NCBI GenBank assembly: GCA_937868015.1
Contig: CALMLW010000006.1
Coordinates: 1 to 35,311 of the forward strand
Direction: 5' to 3'
Length of the DNA: 35,311 bases
From: an uncultured Synergistaceae bacterium
GTDB lineage: Bacteria; Synergistota; Synergistia; Synergistales; Aminiphilaceae
Under the pieces are notes generated by a model, which searched no databases, was not told the origin of the DNA, and saw only the letters and a program-made list of their open reading frames with translations. The position numbers and the translations under genes are program-made. The first letter of the stretch is position 1; every line of letters begins with the position of its first letter. Positions 22,595-30,553 of this stretch are shown here, piece after piece.

Positions 22595-23442
22595 ATCCAT
22601 CGCTGGCCTCGGCCCTCTTTTCCGGCCTTCGCTCCTTTTCCGCTCCAGGGTGGAGGGCAAGTGCCCTGGCTTGGCTACTGGGGTGGGGATTGCGGCGCGC
22701 CAAGCCGCGAAAGAAGGTGGCCCTGGACAACTTGCGCCGGGCTTTTCCGGAAAAGGACGAGGCCTGGCGCGTTGCCGTGGTGGATGAAATCTATTGGCAC
22801 CTCGCCTGGTCCCTGGCCGAATATGGCGCCTTGCTGAAAGATCCTCCCCAGGCTCTGGCATGGTGTGTCCCCGACGAAGGGGTAGATTTTTTGGATCGTT
22901 GCGCGGCGGAAGGACGGGGGGCGGTAATCTGTGCGGGACACTGCGGCAATTGGGAGCTCCTAGGGGCCTGGTTCGCCCGCAAGAGCTACCCCTTTGCCGC
23001 CATCGTACGCCGTCATGACGACCTCCTGATGGAAGAGCTCATCGACGGAGCCCGAAAAACGGTGGGCTTCTCCACGTTGGGAAAGGACGAGCCCATGCGT
23101 CGAGTGGTGCGCCGCCTGAAAGAAGGGGGCTTTGTGGCGGTGCTGATTGACCAGCGGGCGGGATCCGAGGGCATTGAGGTGCCCTTTTTTGGGGTTCCCG
23201 CCACCACCTTCCCCGGGGCCGCCGCCCTCTCTCGTCTGGCTCAGGTGCCCATGGTGCCGGTCTTTTCCTTTCGGGAAAAGCCCTTTAAGCACAAGATCTA
23301 CGTGGGGGCTCCCCTGTCGTGCGCCGCAGGTAGTCGGGACGAGGAGATCGGCGCTCTCATGACGGAAGCCAATCTGGTACTGGAGAAGCTCATCAGAAGG
23401 TATCCCGCCCAGTGGCTTTGGCTCCATCGCCGCTGGCCCTGA
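22591..23442 (+). CDS. lipid A biosynthesis acyltransferase (LpxL/HtrB family)
   Basis: The 283-residue protein belongs to the LpxL/LpxM family, which adds a secondary acyl chain to lipid A precursors at the inner membrane. It has an N-terminal hydrophobic segment (SALAWLLGWGL), RKKVALDNLRRAFPEK, the catalytic HX4E motif as GHCGNWELLG (His117, Glu122), LIDQRAGSEGIEVPFFG, and the C-terminal YPAQWLWLHRRWP, which matches the family end. It implies that the cell has an outer membrane. The ATG overlaps the preceding gene stop. Confidence 0.93.
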   Translation: MNPSLASALFSGLRSFSAPGWRASALAWLLGWGLRRAKPRKKVALDNLRRAFPEKDEAWRVAVVDEIYWHLAWSLAEYGALLKDPPQALAWCVPDEGVDFLDRCAAEGRGAVICAGHCGNWELLGAWFARKSYPFAAIVRRHDDLLMEELIDGARKTVGFSTLGKDEPMRRVVRRLKEGGFVAVLIDQRAGSEGIEVPFFGVPATTFPGAAALSRLAQVPMVPVFSFREKPFKHKIYVGAPLSCAAGSRDEEIGALMTEANLVLEKLIRRYPAQWLWLHRRWP

Positions 23443-23457
23443 TGCGGCGATAGGGAA

Positions 23458-23649
23458 TCATGAAGAACGGTCTCTCATGAGCACTCCGGCGATGGCATAG
23501 TCCTCCTGGGACATCTCCGATAGGATGATGCGCACCTGCTCCGGCCGGACCTGAAGCGCGTCGCACGTCGAGGCCGTTACGCACCGGACGAGGTCTCGTT
23601 TTTGTTCTGTGGACCGGCCTTCCAGCAAATGGATTTGGATTATGGGCAT
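23458..23649 (-). CDS. 4-oxalocrotonate tautomerase family protein
   Basis: A 63-residue tautomerase-fold protein. The invariant Pro follows the initiator Met (MPIIQIHLLEGRSTEQKRDL) and would be the N-terminal catalytic base after Met removal. VRPEQVRIILSEMSQEDYAIAG is the second half of the usual motif. The active-site Arg pair may be Arg12 and Arg39 or nearby; this is not certain. The natural substrate is unknown; no catechol-degradation genes are nearby. GGGAGGG lies about seven bases before the start. Confidence 0.88.
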   Translation of the reverse strand: MPIIQIHLLEGRSTEQKRDLVRCVTASTCDALQVRPEQVRIILSEMSQEDYAIAGVLMRDRSS

Positions 23650-23709
23650 GGATAACCCTCCCTTCGTGTGGGCTTCGGGACCCCGGGGTAAGGGGGCTTC
23701 GATGGCTGG

Positions 23710-23718
23710 ATTATACCA
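23710..23718 (-). promoter_or_regulatory. extended -10 promoter of the tautomerase gene
   Basis: The minus strand reads TGGTATAAT, a perfect extended -10 element, about 60 nt before the start. No convincing -35 box is present; instead the region just upstream holds GTCAC half-sites, which could bind an activator. Confidence 0.6.
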
Positions 23719-23735
23719 GGTCTGTCGCGGAAGGC

Positions 23736-23764
23736 GTGACGGGGCCAGGTCACGGGTGGGTCAC
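23736..23764. repeat. cluster of GTCAC/GTGAC half-sites
   Basis: GTGAC (23736-23740) and GTCAC (23749-23753) form an inverted pair with an 8-bp spacer; a third GTCAC follows at 23760-23764. They lie at the -35 zone of the tautomerase promoter, between two divergent genes, so they could be an operator. No regulator can be named. Confidence 0.35.
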
Positions 23765-23782
23765 TAGCCCCGAAAGGGGTAG
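23764..23782 (+). other. GAAA-tetraloop hairpin in the divergent region
   Basis: CTAGCCCC-GAAA-GGGGTAG forms a stable stem with one bulged base. No T-run follows on the plus strand. A second hairpin, CCCCTCG/CGAGGGG, lies at 23841-23862, next to the ribosome site of the downstream gene. I see no gene in 23650-23891. Confidence 0.4.
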
Positions 23783-23891
23783 TTCTCATAGGTTATTTCG
23801 TCGGCGGCCCTATTGTGATCGAACAACAACATAAGAAGGCCCCCTCGAAAGCCCGCGAGGGGAGAATGAATGGATGAAGGGAGGGTGGGCG

Positions 23892-24821
23892 ATGCTGGCG
23901 GAACTGTTGCGCAATGGGGATATGGTTCTTCTGCCGGAAAAACATCGCCCGGAGGGTATTCCTGCGCCGATCGTTCCCTACGTGGTGCTCTTAGCCCCTT
24001 ACAACAGGGCTCTGGTGGGAACGGACGTGCTCGGATGCCATGAACGATGGCTTTGGGGCAAACTCGGAGGTGATCTTTGGCAGGATGTCACCCTGTACGA
24101 CGACAAGAGTAAGACCCTATCTCTGGGCATCTTTGGTGACATTCGAGTCAATTCCCAGGCCGTGACCCTTCTGCGCCGAGAACTTTTGTCGCACCTTCTC
24201 CCCCCGGGGGACCACGAGGCGGCGCTAAGACTCTTACGCGAAGCTCTGCGCCACGACGCCGTAGCCTCCATCGTGGAGAAATCTCAAGACCCCACCCTCT
24301 GGGGCGAATTGGTGGAAGAAGACGAGACCTTGCGGATGGCCTACTGGGGCTTTCGCCTGGCGCTAGCCTGGGGGACATCGGAAACCATCGTCCATCTCCG
24401 CACGTGGCTTCGTCTTGCGCGTCATTCCTTCGACGGATCGTTACGAAAACCCCGGCTATGGGCCTTCCTGGGGAGTCCTGATGAGGGATCACTGAAGGAC
24501 CTGATGGCCTTGGGCTTTCGGGAGGAGCCCCTGCACGCCCTGAGCTCCAACGAGATAAGTCCGGCGGCGGTAAAGGGCCCCGGGGGATACCTGACCCAGT
24601 TCTGGTACCATCAAGGCTCCCCCAAAGACGGCGTGCCTCCCTTGGGGATGCGCCTCTGGCTCTATCTTACATCGGCCCTTTGGGACGACCTCCGGGGGCG
24701 AAAGGGACTCTCGGTGCGGGAGATGGTCTTCGCCTCCTGGGGCTTTCTAGACGCTCTGGACGCAGAGGCCCACATGGGGCGGTACGGGAAATCCACCCTG
24801 TCTACCGTCCCCTCCCCTTAG
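23892..24821 (+). CDS. hypothetical protein, family not recognised
   Basis: I do not recognise this 309-residue protein. It has no signal peptide and no membrane segment. It is rich in Leu, Trp and charged residues and looks soluble and mostly helical, with a possible beta-rich start (APIVPYVVLLAPYNRALVG). Local features are DVTLYDDKSKTLSLGIFGDI and a repeated helical middle part (RELLSHLLPP, ALRLLREALRHD). ATG 23892 is preferred with AGGGAGGG six bases upstream; an in-frame ATG at 23874 would add six residues. Codon use looks like its neighbours. It stands alone between a divergent tautomerase and a converging rqcH, ending in a strong terminator. Confidence 0.75.
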   Translation: MLAELLRNGDMVLLPEKHRPEGIPAPIVPYVVLLAPYNRALVGTDVLGCHERWLWGKLGGDLWQDVTLYDDKSKTLSLGIFGDIRVNSQAVTLLRRELLSHLLPPGDHEAALRLLREALRHDAVASIVEKSQDPTLWGELVEEDETLRMAYWGFRLALAWGTSETIVHLRTWLRLARHSFDGSLRKPRLWAFLGSPDEGSLKDLMALGFREEPLHALSSNEISPAAVKGPGGYLTQFWYHQGSPKDGVPPLGMRLWLYLTSALWDDLRGRKGLSVREMVFASWGFLDALDAEAHMGRYGKSTLSTVPSP

Positions 24822-24846
24822 GGAGATTCTCCCGAAGCCTTGGCGC

Positions 24847-24875
24847 AAAAGCTCCCCCTTTTGGGGGGCTTTTTT
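24847..24875 (+). terminator. terminator between converging genes
   Basis: AAAAGCTCCCCC, loop TTTT, GGGGGGCTTTTTT. The stem is followed by six T on the plus strand and by AAAA complement (TTTT) on the minus strand, so it can serve both the hypothetical gene and rqcH. Confidence 0.88.
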
Positions 24876-24887
24876 GGCTCCGGCGCT

Positions 24888-26558
24888 TCAGCTTGGTCCT
24901 TTTCCCACCACGGCGTAGGGAACGCTCCGCCAGTAAGACGGGGAGACGCGAACGGTACGAAAACGGTGATAGGTGACGAAGGCCACCCCTTGACCGGGAA
25001 CGTGACGCACTTGGCGACGTTCGGTCACGTCCACTGCCACGGAAAGGCTTCCCTTGGCCCGGCTGTAGGCCGCCGCCAAAGAGGCGGCAAAGTGGACCAG
25101 GACGTCCCGTTGCCCTTCGTCTTCCACCTGGGCGATGACGTGGGCCCCGGGGACGTTTTGGGCGTGGCACCAGAGATCATCCCCCGAGGCTATCTCAAAC
25201 GTGACATATCGATTCCCGGGGGCGTTTAACCCCACGTAGACCCTCCCCCCGGCCAGATCGTATCGAAGATGTGGTGGGGCAGGGCGGCGCTTTTTTGTCG
25301 AAGGCCCGGGGCGGGAGATCTCCAGGAGAGACCGGAGCACCTGAATATCTTCCACCGCGTCGAGCACGGCCATCTGCTCCTCCACGTCGTGTCGCCGGGC
25401 CTCCAGGGCGCGCCGTTCTCTCTCGAGATCTTGGCCGTAGGCCTTCCACTTTCGGTACATTCGGTAACAGTTCTGGGCGTTGGCGGCTACACTCCTCTCC
25501 GGATCGAGAGGGATCTCCTCCGGCGGGGCTTCCGATTCCCACAGGGACAAAGCGATGCTTGTCGCCCGCATCGCCAGCGCCTCCTCCACTCTGGGGGCGT
25601 GGGAGAGCAGGAGATCTCCCCAGACTCGCCTCTGATCCGCCTGGCCGAAAAGTAGCTCTTTGTGGGCAAAACCCTCCTCCTCTCGGGCCAATCGATGGGC
25701 CACACTCTCCGCTTCTTGTCGCAAGAAGCGGAGTCCGGTCTGCAAAATTCGCGACCTCATGGGGGCGGCGACGATCCGCTGGGAGGCGATGAGGAGATCT
25801 TCGGAGATCTCGGTGCCTTCAGGGAGAAGGAAGGGAAATTGGGTCAGATATCCCTTGCCTAGCTCCTGGACGATGCCTCGATGGGGCGCAAAAAAACCCT
25901 CCCGCAGGGCTTGAACCCACCTATCCCGGGGAAGGGTCTGCCAATGGCGGGCCACATGAGCCAGGAAGGGACGGCCGAAGCCGATCATGTGAGTCAGAGA
26001 AGAAGGGGCTTCATCGATCCACGAAGTTTCTTCAGGGGTAAATCCCTCCATGGGGGGAGGGGGGACATAGGGGTGTCCGGGCAGAAGGCTCCGGTAACGG
26101 TTCATATCCGGATGGACGTGTTTTGCCGCATCGACGATGATTCCCCCCTCGTCCCGGAGGGCCAGATTGCTGTAGCGTCCGGCGCACTCCAGCACCAGAG
26201 AACGCCCTCGACAGATTCCGGCGCCGATGGAGCGTTCGAAAAAAAGCTCCAGCACGCGGTCATGTCCCCACTGCTCAGCGCGTACGAAACGGGCCCCGCC
26301 AATGTGGGCACGCAGCGCCAGAAGCAGGGAGCAGGGGGATTCTCCCGCGCTCTTCAAATCCGCCATGCGATGGGGCGCCATTCGACACAGTCCGGGGGAA
26401 TCCGCATGCCATGTTATAAAGAGCCAATCCTTCCCGTGCCAACATTGGAGGGCCACCCACTCCCGCCCCCCTTCCAGCCGGGCGACCCGGTCCGGGGCTT
26501 GATGCCGATCTATCAATGCCCCCGCCCAAGCTCTGACCAATTCCGATCCCAGGGCCAT
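24888..26558 (-). CDS. rqcH: RqcH/NFACT-family ribosome quality control factor
   Basis: The 556-residue protein is the bacterial Rqc2 homologue. It binds obstructed 50S subunits and, in B. subtilis, adds C-terminal alanine tails using tRNA-Ala. The NFACT-N domain shows FVRAEQWGHDRVLELFF with the essential Asp-Arg pair at residues 100-101. Then come the helical middle with a coiled coil (about 350-410) and NFACT-R with DDLWCHAQNVPGAHVIAQV. ATG 26558 is chosen with GGTGGGG upstream; the frame is open to 26585. The middle region carries many Arg/Glu coiled-coil residues (DLERERRALEARRHDVEEQM). It faces away from tRNA-Ala(CGC). Confidence 0.92.
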   Translation of the reverse strand: MALGSELVRAWAGALIDRHQAPDRVARLEGGREWVALQCWHGKDWLFITWHADSPGLCRMAPHRMADLKSAGESPCSLLLALRAHIGGARFVRAEQWGHDRVLELFFERSIGAGICRGRSLVLECAGRYSNLALRDEGGIIVDAAKHVHPDMNRYRSLLPGHPYVPPPPMEGFTPEETSWIDEAPSSLTHMIGFGRPFLAHVARHWQTLPRDRWVQALREGFFAPHRGIVQELGKGYLTQFPFLLPEGTEISEDLLIASQRIVAAPMRSRILQTGLRFLRQEAESVAHRLAREEEGFAHKELLFGQADQRRVWGDLLLSHAPRVEEALAMRATSIALSLWESEAPPEEIPLDPERSVAANAQNCYRMYRKWKAYGQDLERERRALEARRHDVEEQMAVLDAVEDIQVLRSLLEISRPGPSTKKRRPAPPHLRYDLAGGRVYVGLNAPGNRYVTFEIASGDDLWCHAQNVPGAHVIAQVEDEGQRDVLVHFAASLAAAYSRAKGSLSVAVDVTERRQVRHVPGQGVAFVTYHRFRTVRVSPSYWRSVPYAVVGKGPS

Positions 26559-26632
26559 TTTTCCCCACCCTCTCCGTCGTGTCATACCCTTAGAAGAGCA
26601 CGAAGGAACAGTCTACCTGGAACCACGCACTC

Positions 26633-26662
26633 TTGACAAGAGCGGGGGTGCCGCACTAGAAT
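26633..26662 (+). promoter_or_regulatory. promoter reading toward tRNA-Ala
   Basis: Consensus TTGACA (26633-26638), an 18-bp spacer and TAGAAT (26657-26662). It would give a tRNA precursor with a leader of nearly 90 nt. Confidence 0.7.
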
Positions 26663-26744
26663 ACTCCCCGGGTTGCGCCGGGTTGTGGCATCCGATATGG
26701 CTGGGGGACCGTGGCCCTGGCGTTTTGGAATAGTTCCCGGGTTG
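26659..26744 (+). repeat. imperfect direct repeat in the tRNA-Ala leader
   Basis: GAATACTCCCCGGGTTG (26659-26675) recurs as GAATAGTTCCCGGGTTG (26728-26744), differing at two positions. GGGTTG also occurs between them at 26680-26685. The first copy includes most of the -10 box, so the second could be a relic promoter. Confidence 0.45.
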
Positions 26745-26755
26745 TGGTGTGGCGT

Positions 26756-26830
26756 GGGGCTGTAGCGCAGAGGGAGCGCGATTCCTTCGCAAGGAATAGG
26801 CCGGGGGTTCGAGTCCCCCCAGCTCCACCA
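26756..26830 (+). tRNA. tRNA-Ala (CGC anticodon)
   Basis: A complete 75-nt tRNA with encoded CCA. Acceptor GGGGCTG pairs with CAGCTCC, giving the G3-U70 wobble pair that identifies alanine tRNAs. The anticodon arm ATTCC/GGAAT holds loop TTCGCAA, so the anticodon is CGC, reading GCG. The T arm is GGGGGTTCGAGTCCCCC. Confidence 0.95.
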
Positions 26831-26838
26831 ACAATTAC

Positions 26839-26858
26839 AAGGGTTTAGAGACCCTTTT
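26839..26858 (+). terminator. terminator after tRNA-Ala
   Basis: AAGGGT, loop TTAGAG, ACCCTT, continuing into TTTT. The stem is short, so some read-through into the following structured interval is likely. Confidence 0.6.
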
Positions 26859-26922
26859 ACAGCGCGAAAGTCTCGCCAAGGGAGTGGCGGCTTCGCGGTA
26901 GAAACCAGCCTCTTCCTGGGGT

Positions 26923-27064
26923 GATTTTCTATCCTGGGGGGAGGCGTGTTTTGTGGTTAGAAAATCTGCAAGAGCGGCACAAGAGGAGGCGACGCTTCTA
27001 CGTGCCGCCGTCGGAAGCTTCCACATCTTCCGCCGGGGCCTCGGCCTTGCTCCGTCAACCCCGG
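26923..27064 (+). other. chain of hairpins, candidate structured RNA
   Basis: Four inverted repeats follow one another: GATTTTCTA/TAGAAAATC (26923-26966, 26-base loop), GCGGCAC/GTGCCGC with an inner AGAGG/CTTCT stem (26974-27008), CGGAAG/CTTCCG (about 27011-27031) and CCGGGG/CCCCGG (about 27032-27063). No known riboswitch, tmRNA, RNase P, 6S or SRP signature was found. The 54-codon ORF described separately runs through it, so the pairing may be partly accidental. Confidence 0.4.
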
Positions 27065-27117
27065 ACCTCGATCGGCACATTCCCGATTCCTTCGAGAAGT
27101 GGTACCTTAGGCGGTGA
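26953..27117 (+). CDS. small hypothetical ORF, 54 residues
   Basis: A GTG-started ORF preceded by GGGGGGAGG eight bases upstream. The protein begins VVRKSARAAQEEATLLRAAV (Met at position 1 in practice) and ends DSFEKWYLRR; it is basic and I recognise no family. Third codon positions in its second half are mostly G or C, as in neighbouring genes. A terminator-like hairpin begins at its stop codon. The same frame stays open for 42 more codons after this TGA, to a TAG at 27244-27246, so it may instead be a broken longer gene. Only moderately supported. Confidence 0.4.
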   Translation: MVRKSARAAQEEATLLRAAVGSFHIFRRGLGLAPSTPDLDRHIPDSFEKWYLRR

Positions 27118-27160
27118 GAAAACCCGCGCCAGGCGTTCACGGCCGCCCTTTATTTTTTCC
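27110..27160 (+). terminator. terminator-like hairpin 1
   Basis: GGCGGTGA (27110-27117) pairs with TCA and CCGCC (27137-27147, with a CGG bulge), followed by CTTTATTTTTTCC. The left arm contains the TGA stop of the 54-codon ORF. Confidence 0.5.
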
Positions 27161-27178
27161 GCACTCCGTGGACCAGAA

Positions 27179-27205
27179 GCACGCGCCGTTGTGTGCTCCG
27201 CGTGC
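27179..27205 (+). other. perfect 7-bp hairpin
   Basis: GCACGCG (27179-27185) and CGCGTGC (27199-27205) flank a 13-base loop. No T-run follows. It lies between two terminator-like structures. Confidence 0.4.
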
Positions 27206-27229
27206 CGATGGCCTATCTGCGTGAGAAGG

Positions 27230-27277
27230 GAGGGGAAGCGGTCTAGGGCTCCCTTCGGGAATCGCTCCTCAGTTTTT
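27230..27277 (+). terminator. terminator-like hairpin 2
   Basis: GAGG and AGCG (27230-27240, 3-base bulge) pair with CGCT and CCTC (27263-27270), enclosing a CCC/GGG stem, then AGTTTTT. Confidence 0.45.
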
Positions 27278-27320
27278 CGTCGGGAAAGGGTCATAGGAAC
27301 GATGGGTTGATCCAAGGGTT

Positions 27321-27368
27321 CCACCACTTCTTTTGGGCTGGAGACCGTCCGGAGGAGTGGTGGTTTTT
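27321..27368 (+). terminator. terminator-like hairpin 3 (strong)
   Basis: CCACCACTTC (27321-27330) pairs with GGAGTGGTGG (27354-27363) with one G-U pair, then TTTTT (27364-27368). It would stop any transcript entering from the tRNA-Ala side before the DUF1850 gene. Confidence 0.75.
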
Positions 27369-27437
27369 GTATCCGAAGGTATTTCTCAGCCCTCCGCTCC
27401 TTCCACCCCAGAGGACCGGGAGTCACGGAGCCGTCCC

Positions 27438-27466
27438 TTTCAACATCCTTCCTTCCGTGATAGACT
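27438..27466 (+). promoter_or_regulatory. candidate promoter of the DUF1850 gene
   Basis: TTTCAA (27438-27443), a 17-bp spacer and TAGACT (27461-27466), just after the last terminator. A 14-codon ORF (ATG 27482, stop 27524-27526) with GGGAGGGG six bases upstream follows. Its stop is one base before the chosen DUF1850 ATG. Confidence 0.4.
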
Positions 27467-27527
27467 TGGGAGGGGTATTCCATGGGGAGACAAGAGAAGG
27501 GGGATCTGGGGAAAGGGGCCCGATGAA

Positions 27528-28088
27528 ATGGGGGCGGACTTTTGGAAAGCAGGATCGTCGGGCCCTTATGGGGGGCCGCGAGGGGAGGTCTTCTTTGGAA
27601 AGGCCCTGCGTCGGTGGGAAAAGGGGTTGGGGAAGGTCCTCGTGGGGCTGGGGCTCCTCTTTCTCTGCGTCATCCCCACGCCGGTGATCAAGATTTCCCA
27701 CCATGATGGGACTCCGTGGATAGAACAGAAGGTGCTCCCGGGGCAGGAAGTGATTACCGTATACACCCACTCTGTGGAGCGCACCGAGGTGCGAGACACT
27801 TACCGGGTCGTCGGAGGGACGTTGTGGGCCTGGGAGACCTGGACAAAATCTCAAAATGCGGGACTACCCACGGAAACCGGGCTGTGGGGACGCTATTTCC
27901 TCCGGGGCCCGTGGCAGGTTTACCAGGGGTGTCATGCGAGCTACTGCCGCATCGTGTGGCGCGTGGGGAACGAACTCTTGGGGAGAAACGTCGTAATGCT
28001 CCCACCGGGGAAGGAGGTGAAGGCCTTCCTTCTTTTTCCGGGGGAGAGGATGGCCTTTGCGGCTTCTTGGGGGTTGGGCCCTTTCTAG
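27528..28088 (+). CDS. DUF1850 domain protein, TRAP transporter partner
   Basis: The 186-residue protein has one membrane segment (about residues 35-55, VLVGLGLLFLCVIPTP) followed by an extracytoplasmic DUF1850 domain. That domain has its typical motif VYTHSVERTEVRDTYRV (about 78-94) and AGLPTETG. DUF1850 proteins are found almost only next to TAXI-type TRAP transporters with fused 4TM/12TM permeases, and their role is unknown. ATG 27528 has AAAGGGG nine bases upstream; the frame is open to 27333, but that part looks non-coding. The permease follows after 335 bp. Confidence 0.8.
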   Translation: MGADFWKAGSSGPYGGPRGEVFFGKALRRWEKGLGKVLVGLGLLFLCVIPTPVIKISHHDGTPWIEQKVLPGQEVITVYTHSVERTEVRDTYRVVGGTLWAWETWTKSQNAGLPTETGLWGRYFLRGPWQVYQGCHASYCRIVWRVGNELLGRNVVMLPPGKEVKAFLLFPGERMAFAASWGLGPF

Positions 28089-28423
28089 TTTTTTAAAGGC
28101 CCCTCCCTTTCAAGGAGTTCCTTCCTAAAGCGTTTTTGGTGGCCTATTTTTCGGGGAGGAAGGGCAATCTAGAAAAAGATACGGCCGTCCCTGCGGTGAT
28201 TCCTCATCAGATTCCACCTTCGTCGATGGAGACTGCGGTGACCTCTGCAGGGAGTTTACCCTGGAACCCTGGGAGAGTACGGCAAGGGGAGAGGGAAGGG
28301 GGGGAAAAGGCGCCTTTTTTGGAAGGATCTTCCGGGGTTGAAACAGGGAGAGGCCTTTCCAAGGGGCATCGGCCGCAGAACGGTGGGCGAAAGGACCGTA
28401 AGGATTGATCAGAAAAGGAGGCG
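28089..28423 (+). other. 335-bp gap, no gene recognised
   Basis: No convincing ORF. A 90-codon frame (28136-28408) is rich in Gly, Arg and Glu and looks non-coding. A 14-bp palindrome AAAAGGCGCCTTTT followed by TT (28305-28320) could be a weak terminator. The end of the gap carries AAAAGGAGG, the ribosome site of the permease gene. Confidence 0.5.
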
Positions 28424-30553
28424 ATGGATTTGGGAAAACCTGCACCGGAACAAAAGCAACATCAGGTCATGGACGGTGAGCTCCCTGGCCCTGCGACCAT
28501 AGACCTGGACGCCCTGCGTCGCGAATTCGACACCGAGGCCCGTTTTCGCAAGTTGCGGGGATGGATGGCGGGAGTTGTCACGGGGGCCTGCGTGGCTCTG
28601 TCTCTCTTTCACCTCTACACGGCCGGTTTCGGCTTGCTCAACGCCATCAAGCAGCGCTCCGTCCACCTGGCCATAGTTCTTTTTGTGGTGTTTCTCATCT
28701 ATCCCGCGTCGCAGAAATCGGCAAAAGACCGCATCCCATGGTATGACTTCGTCTTGGCCTCCATGGCGGCCTTTGTCGTATTTTACCACGTGATTTTCTT
28801 TCAGGACCTGCTCTTGCGGTCGGGGCTTCCGACGACTATGGACCTTGTGGCGGGTTTTTTGGGCATCACACTCCTTTTGGAAGCCACTCGCCGGGTGTCG
28901 AATCCGGTCTTGCCCATCATCGCCATAATCTTTTTGCTGTACTGTTACTTTGGCCGATATTTTTTCGGCATTTTTGCCCATCGAGGATACAATTTCACTA
29001 GAATAATCAACCACATGTATCTGGGCACCGAAGGGGTCTTTGGTACTCCCCTGGAAGTTTCCGCCACGTTTGTGTTCCTGTTCATCTTGTTTGGGACCTT
29101 TCTGGAACAGACGGGCATGGGGAAATTCATCATCGACCTGGCCATGGCCCTGGCGGGGCATTCCACCGGAGGGCCCGCCAAGGTGGCGGTAATCAGCTCG
29201 GGACTCATGGGTTCCATTTCGGGCTCCTCGGTGGCCAATGTTTGTACCACGGGGATGTTCACCATACCTCTCATGAAAAGTGTAGGATACAAACCCTACT
29301 TTGCCGGAGCCGTGGAAGCGGTGGCCTCCACCGGAGGACAAATCATGCCCCCGGTGATGGGAGCCGCCGGGTTCATCATGGCCACCATGATGGAGGTCCC
29401 CTATCTGGAAGTGGCCGCTGCGGCGGTAATCCCAGCCCTTCTTTATTACTTCGCCGTCTACGTCCAGGTACACTTCGAAGCCCATCGTCTGGGCCTTCGG
29501 GGGTTGGCCCGCGAACGCTTGCCTCATATTGTGCCGCTCATGAAGGAGAAGGGACACTTGCTAATTCCCCTGGCGGGGATCATTTACTTCCTCGTGGCGG
29601 GGTACACCCCTCTTAAGGCTGCATTTAACGGGATCATGATTACAGTGGTGGTCTCCTTCTTCCGGAAAGACACCCGGTTGACCCTTCCCCGCATGCTGGC
29701 CGCCCTGGAAGAAGGGGCCCGTGGAGCCCTGGGCGTAGCCTGTGCCTGCGCCACCGTGGGCATCGTGGTGGGCACCGCCACGCTGACGGGATTGGGCCTT
29801 ACCATAGCCAACGCCATCGTTAAGCTGTCTGGAGGCATGCTGTTTTTAACGTTGGCTTTTACCATGGTGGCCTGTATTCTCCTGGGAGCGGGATTGCCCA
29901 CCACGGCGAATTTCATTGTTACGAGCACCATGGCAGCCCCCGCCCTCTTCCAATTCGACATCCCCCCCATGGCGGTCTACATGTTTGTGCTGTACTATGG
30001 CATCGCGGCGGACCTGAGCCCTCCTGTGGCGCTGGCGGCGTATGCGGGGGCGGGCATCGCGGGGTCCGACCCCATGAAGACCGGCATGACTGCCATGAAA
30101 CTCGCCATTGCGGGCTTCATCGTTCCATTCATCTACGTATTTAACCCCATGCTGGTCCTGGTGGGGCTTCCCGTGCGCCCCGCCATGCTGGCCATCCTGG
30201 CCGTAGGGCTCCTCCTGGCTGGAGTTTTGGGGGCCATGAACCGGGAAAATTCGTCGAAAAAGCGCGCCACCTTTGGCGTCATAGCGGCCCTTTCCCTGGG
30301 AGTCCTGGGGTTCTTGGTGATGAAAGACATCATCCCCCTGGACTTCATCCAGGCCATGGCCACGGCCATGGTGGGCGTCTGCCTCCTGGGCATGAGCGCC
30401 GTGGGGTTCTACCGCGCGGAGATGAGTTGGTGGGTGCGCCTTTTGGCCCTGGCTGGGGCCCTGGGGCTCATGATCCCCGGATGGAAAACGGACCTGGCCG
30501 GGCTCGTCATCCTCGTCGTAATCCACTTCTACCAAAGGTCCCAGGAAAAGTGA
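28424..30553 (+). CDS. TRAP transporter permease, 4TM/12TM fusion (TAXI type)
   Basis: The 709-residue membrane protein fuses the small (4TM) and large (12TM) TRAP subunits, as in the TIGR02123-type family. About 18 hydrophobic segments are visible. Large-subunit landmarks are GTFLEQTGMGKFIIDLAMAL, SSGLMGSISGSSVANV, ASTGGQIMPPVMGAAGFIM and LGAGLPTTANFIV. TRAP systems use an ion gradient and an extracytoplasmic binding protein to take up organic or amino acids; substrate unknown. The N-terminus (about 45 residues) is cytoplasmic and charged. The expected TAXI binding protein is not next to it. Start ATG with AAAAGGAGG. The stop is 106 bp before ileS. Confidence 0.93.
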   Translation: MDLGKPAPEQKQHQVMDGELPGPATIDLDALRREFDTEARFRKLRGWMAGVVTGACVALSLFHLYTAGFGLLNAIKQRSVHLAIVLFVVFLIYPASQKSAKDRIPWYDFVLASMAAFVVFYHVIFFQDLLLRSGLPTTMDLVAGFLGITLLLEATRRVSNPVLPIIAIIFLLYCYFGRYFFGIFAHRGYNFTRIINHMYLGTEGVFGTPLEVSATFVFLFILFGTFLEQTGMGKFIIDLAMALAGHSTGGPAKVAVISSGLMGSISGSSVANVCTTGMFTIPLMKSVGYKPYFAGAVEAVASTGGQIMPPVMGAAGFIMATMMEVPYLEVAAAAVIPALLYYFAVYVQVHFEAHRLGLRGLARERLPHIVPLMKEKGHLLIPLAGIIYFLVAGYTPLKAAFNGIMITVVVSFFRKDTRLTLPRMLAALEEGARGALGVACACATVGIVVGTATLTGLGLTIANAIVKLSGGMLFLTLAFTMVACILLGAGLPTTANFIVTSTMAAPALFQFDIPPMAVYMFVLYYGIAADLSPPVALAAYAGAGIAGSDPMKTGMTAMKLAIAGFIVPFIYVFNPMLVLVGLPVRPAMLAILAVGLLLAGVLGAMNRENSSKKRATFGVIAALSLGVLGFLVMKDIIPLDFIQAMATAMVGVCLLGMSAVGFYRAEMSWWVRLLALAGALGLMIPGWKTDLAGLVILVVIHFYQRSQEK

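Follow-up and report, generated by a model that had tools for sequence, protein, structure and literature searches.

The interval between the tRNA-Ala(CGC) gene and the DUF1850 gene of an uncultured Synergistaceae bacterium contains a truncated tyrosine integrase gene, of which the N-terminal third is left and is interrupted by a stop codon, and we conclude, with a probability of about 0.9, that it is the decayed end of a small tRNA-targeting integrative element. The DNA that we analyzed, hereafter called the window, is a stretch of 35,311 nucleotides that corresponds to contig C6 of a fragmented assembly (354 contigs, 2.44 Mb, 84% complete). A preliminary description had correctly assigned the genes flanking the interval, a tRNA-Ala (CGC) on one side and DUF1850 and TRAP genes on the other, but considered the roughly 500 nt in between to be without a recognised gene. 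Noncoding RNA, a multi-stage regulatory leader of the transporter genes, and decayed DNA were put forward as possible readings. Only the last of these is supported by the results presented here, and the integrase pseudogene occupies much of the supposedly empty region (Table 1).

Table 1. Features of the interval behind tRNA-Ala(CGC) and of its flanks. Positions are those of the window.
Feature	Position	Strand	Remarks
Promoter-like site of tRNA-Ala	26633-26662	+	TTGACA, 18 nt, TAGAAT; 11/12 consensus matches, by consensus only
tRNA-Ala (CGC)	26756-26830	+	Intact; presumably served the lost element as attachment site
84-nt block	26838-26921	+	Begins with weak hairpin AAGGGTTTAGAGACCCTT; homologous to the DNA that follows tRNA-Val(GAC) on contig C262 of this genome
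Further hairpin	26872-26925	+	Energy-based scan
Strong hairpin in the leader of the relic	26901-26950	+	-26.8 kcal/mol; not listed in the preliminary description
Integrase pseudogene	26953-27231	+	GTG start and N-terminal SAM-like domain; ungapped profile match 26962-27231
First listed "terminator" hairpin	27097-27150	+	-15.9 kcal/mol; entirely within the pseudogene
Terminator-like hairpin	27232-27271	+	-16.0 kcal/mol, then TTTTTCG; directly 3' of the aligned frame of the relic
Further hairpin	27289-27326	+	Energy-based scan
Strong intrinsic-terminator-like hairpin	27319-27364	+	-26.3 kcal/mol, then TTTTTG
DUF1850 gene	27483-28088	+	Alternative start at 27528
TRAP gene	28424-30553		

The frame of the relic starts with a GTG codon located behind the ribosome-binding-like sequence GGGGGGAGG, is interrupted by a TGA stop codon at positions 27115-27117, and then continues in the same frame up to position 27231, so that the first ~93 codons of the gene are left. 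It was first detected by a six-frame comparison of the interval with fetched loci, in which positions 27028-27231 of the + strand matched the N-terminal domain of the integrase encoded by contig C307 of the same genome (37% identity over 68 residues, E 2.4e-5). When this intact integrase was used to search its own genome, three places were found: the gene itself, a distant recombinase and, as the third, C6:27001-27231 (E 2.1e-4, with one TGA inside). With a profile built from seven integrases of the order, the relic scored 32-36 bits, and the next best place in all six frames of the 35-kb window less than 0 bits. The interval scored 36.1 bits with this profile, while the maximum obtained for 1999 dinucleotide shuffles was 7.9 bits; omission of the same-genome C307 integrase from the profile still resulted in a score of 29.5 bits against a shuffle maximum of 10.0. 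Neither the profile nor the own-genome integrase search produced a match to the catalytic domain near the relic; the relic is a pseudogene and not a functional element. Positions 27232-27480, between the relic and DUF1850, carry no such assignment.

It could be argued that the interval is an ordinary long spacer, composed of a tRNA trailer and terminators, which resembles an integrase by chance. In line with this, the pairwise identity between the relic and integrases is only 32-37%, the 97-residue relic alone has no match in Pfam, PHROGs or phage records, and the excess of hairpins in the interval is modest (see below). We consider this explanation very improbable, however, because the profile score lies more than 25 bits above the shuffles at a place that stands alone in the window, because an unbiased genome search finds the relic, and because position, strand and start distance of the relic are those of the integrase family. 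The relic adjoins tRNA-Ala on the same strand, with its start 122 nt behind the tRNA end. Likewise, the six closest members of the integrase family that other genomes of the order encode, each preceded by a tRNA-Val or a tRNA-Thr gene, are located directly behind the tRNA on the same strand, and their start codons are 106-131 nt away from it.

Islands with a tyrosine integrase usually target tRNA genes (PMC4383910). As in the Islander tRNA-gene islands described there, the integrase sequence lies directly behind the 3' end of an intact tRNA gene and on the same strand; unlike them, the relic comprises just ~93 codons with a stop, carries no cargo, and no second attachment site is seen. At two other loci of the integrase family (L125 and L127), and more weakly at L126 and L123, the anticodon-stem/variable-loop sequence of the tRNA recurs in nearly identical form 30-65 nt behind the tRNA (for example GGAAGAGGTCAC and GGATGGGGTCT). 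These copies are above shuffle level in L125 and L127 and may constitute a second core or arm site. The corresponding region 30-65 nt behind tRNA-Ala in the window contains no significant copy of this motif.

The same genome contains an intact element of this kind, integrated in tRNA-Ala(GGC), on contig C307 (7688 nt, i.e., ~7.7 kb; locus L113). Its flanks are found on contigs C13 and C30 (loci L111 and L112), which are connected via C307 by 55-nt overlaps (C13-C307-C30). The element encodes an integrase of 313 residues (Phage_integrase PF00589, E 5.7e-29; phrog_1 integrase), a primase (phrog_1829) and a terminase small subunit (Terminase_2), and it resembles a phage satellite (PICI-like). Its integrase is related to that of the relic, and target (tRNA-Ala) and arrangement are the same, with the integrase start 155 nt from the tRNA end. 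In contrast to the relic, the C307 element is intact and has direct repeats of at least 48 bp. Moreover, the resemblance between the leaders of the two integrases ends after the tRNA and a short trailer, which shows that the C307 element is not the parent of the relic.

We then consider the hairpins, which had been the reason to single out the interval. The preliminary description reported three hairpins followed by T-runs, and an energy-based scan recovered all three near the reported places, the last of them being strong indeed. The characterization of the interval as hairpin-rich holds in part. The + strand of positions 26860-27375 contains six hairpin-plus-T sites, compared to 3.2 +/- 1.3 in 150 dinucleotide shuffles (P ~0.03), and a simple consensus scan of the region 25500-28500 yielded 10 terminator-like sites versus 3.7 +/- 1.9 in shuffles; the entire interval, though, folds only slightly better than its shuffled versions (z -1.8). 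Thus, the hairpins are real, but their excess over chance is modest and is mainly due to the two strongest ones, at 26901-26950 and 27319-27364. The former lies in what was the leader of the integrase gene and contains GGGGGGAGG. The first of the three reported hairpins (27097-27150) is no better than the best hairpin of a typical shuffle (median best -17.5 kcal/mol), and its T-run, TTTATTTTTT, is part of the relic codons CTT TAT TTT TTC (Leu-Tyr-Phe-Phe). The hairpin at 27319-27364 is stable, G+C-rich and followed by a T-run, as is the case for intrinsic terminators, and judged by these features it is probably a true one.

The possibility that the interval is a noncoding RNA gene or a leader that regulates the DUF1850-TRAP genes in several stages would fit the two strong hairpins, the T-rich tails and the position upstream of these genes. 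The Rfam scan that had been proposed as a check, carried out for positions 26831-27480, assigned the interval to no family, not even at E<=5: gathering scores were reached by tRNAs only, and the sub-threshold matches correspond to the tRNA itself. A DNA search of 182 other genomes of the order found nothing beyond chance, and the DUF1850 leaders of relatives are unrelated, being mostly short or containing a methyltransferase-like (pcm-like) frame. Since the pseudogene also accounts for much of the hairpin sequence, we regard an RNA function of this type as very improbable. An even smaller, practically negligible, chance is left for a T-box-like riboswitch. This idea was based on the presence at position 27099 of GTGGTACC upstream of a hairpin with a T-run, an arrangement reminiscent of the T-box riboswitch (RF00230). 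In the window, however, these letters are part of the relic codons GAG AAG TGG TAC CTT AGG CGG TGA, there is no match to the T-box family at E<=5 and no Stem I, and the downstream gene encodes a transporter and is not an amino-acid gene. Codons of a pseudogene can, therefore, mimic a T-box core together with a terminator tail.

Another line of evidence concerns the gene order around the interval. In all ten relatives examined, which belong to the same order, the sequence of genes is tRNA-Arg(CCT), DUF1850, TRAP, ileS, rluD, the gene of an NFACT protein on the opposite strand, and tRNA-Ala(CGC). Eight of these relatives then have tRNA-Pro and further tRNA genes behind tRNA-Ala(CGC). In the window, the NFACT gene and tRNA-Ala are located upstream of DUF1850, such that tRNA-Ala abuts DUF1850; this comparison covered positions 23442-28423 of the window and the ten loci (L060-L069). 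The interval thus marks a junction created by rearrangement, new to this genome. Its own tRNA-Arg(CCT) is present at the end of contig C45, the upstream genes of which agree with the relatives. No match to a tRNA-Arg or to a decayed pcm-like gene, both of which precede DUF1850 in relatives, was seen in the interval.

A gene order that differs from that of all relatives examined might also be produced by an assembly chimera in which the tRNA-Ala and DUF1850 ends were misjoined, all the more so as a number of contigs of the assembly terminate at tRNA genes, where they overlap by 55 nt. We consider a misjoin unlikely: the connection runs through 650 nt of unique sequence with no repeat end, the base composition is continuous, and the integrase family of the relic is present in the same genome. 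In addition, a chimera would shift the junction, yet leave the relic in place.

Based on these results, we propose the following scenario. A small mobile element would have inserted at the 3' end of tRNA-Ala(CGC). The stretch of the element proximal to the tRNA and the first codons of its integrase gene, with the stop inside, would have survived, whereas the catalytic domain, the attachment site at the far end and everything else of the element would have been deleted when the region was joined to the DUF1850-TRAP operon. A second copy of the tRNA-Ala 3' end above shuffle level is not seen in positions 26831-28500, and the absence of the far direct repeat is expected if the far end was deleted; for this reason, we do not claim a complete element. 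An 11-base match to the tRNA end, CGATTCCTTCG at 27084-27094, was rejected as such a copy because it is below shuffle level. The hairpins would then be of three kinds: structures that arise by chance in the DNA of a pseudogene, the hairpin that once belonged to the integrase leader, and intrinsic terminators, one or two in number, by which tRNA-Ala is now set apart from the DUF1850 operon. The hairpins behind the relic, mainly the one at 27319-27364, probably shield the operon from read-through of the tRNA gene. What appeared to be a candidate noncoding RNA is thus replaced by a probable history in which an element entered behind tRNA-Ala and decayed, and its site became a breakpoint of gene order. 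The relic adds one more example to a widespread type of genomic fossil, and its wider interest is small.

The tRNA-proximal part of the interval has a counterpart elsewhere in the genome. The 84-nt block just behind tRNA-Ala aligns with the DNA behind tRNA-Val(GAC) (L115:4509-4720) with an ungapped local score of 68, while the best of 2000 shuffles scored 34 and other post-tRNA regions, of this genome and of relatives, scored 12-30. The block presumably represents tRNA-proximal DNA of the element family, although no integrase frame follows the copy on contig C262. On this contig, which overlaps contig C45 by 55 nt, tRNA-Val(GAC) is followed by the tRNA-Pro array, and hence both tRNAs have new neighbours: DUF1850 in the case of tRNA-Ala, and the tRNA-Pro array in the case of tRNA-Val(GAC). 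Related elements in tRNA-Ala(CGC) and tRNA-Val(GAC) could have recombined, either directly or through the integrase, with exchange of chromosome arms. Such an event would explain both the shared block and the new neighbours at the two tRNAs; it is unproven, and we put it forward as a tentative and rather doubtful possibility. If true, decayed tRNA elements would have driven a change in gene order. Inversions driven by integrase are documented for Thermococcales (PMC5495485).

Finally, two other regions of the window deserve mention. A 315-aa protein is encoded beside the NFACT gene (positions 23874-24821), which has no clear Pfam family and matches TPR weakly. The gap of 335 nt between DUF1850 and TRAP (positions 28089-28423), which is unusual within a two-gene transporter operon, has a G+C content of 0.55, which is low for the contig, and a terminator-like hairpin (28069-28083) is located just ahead of it.
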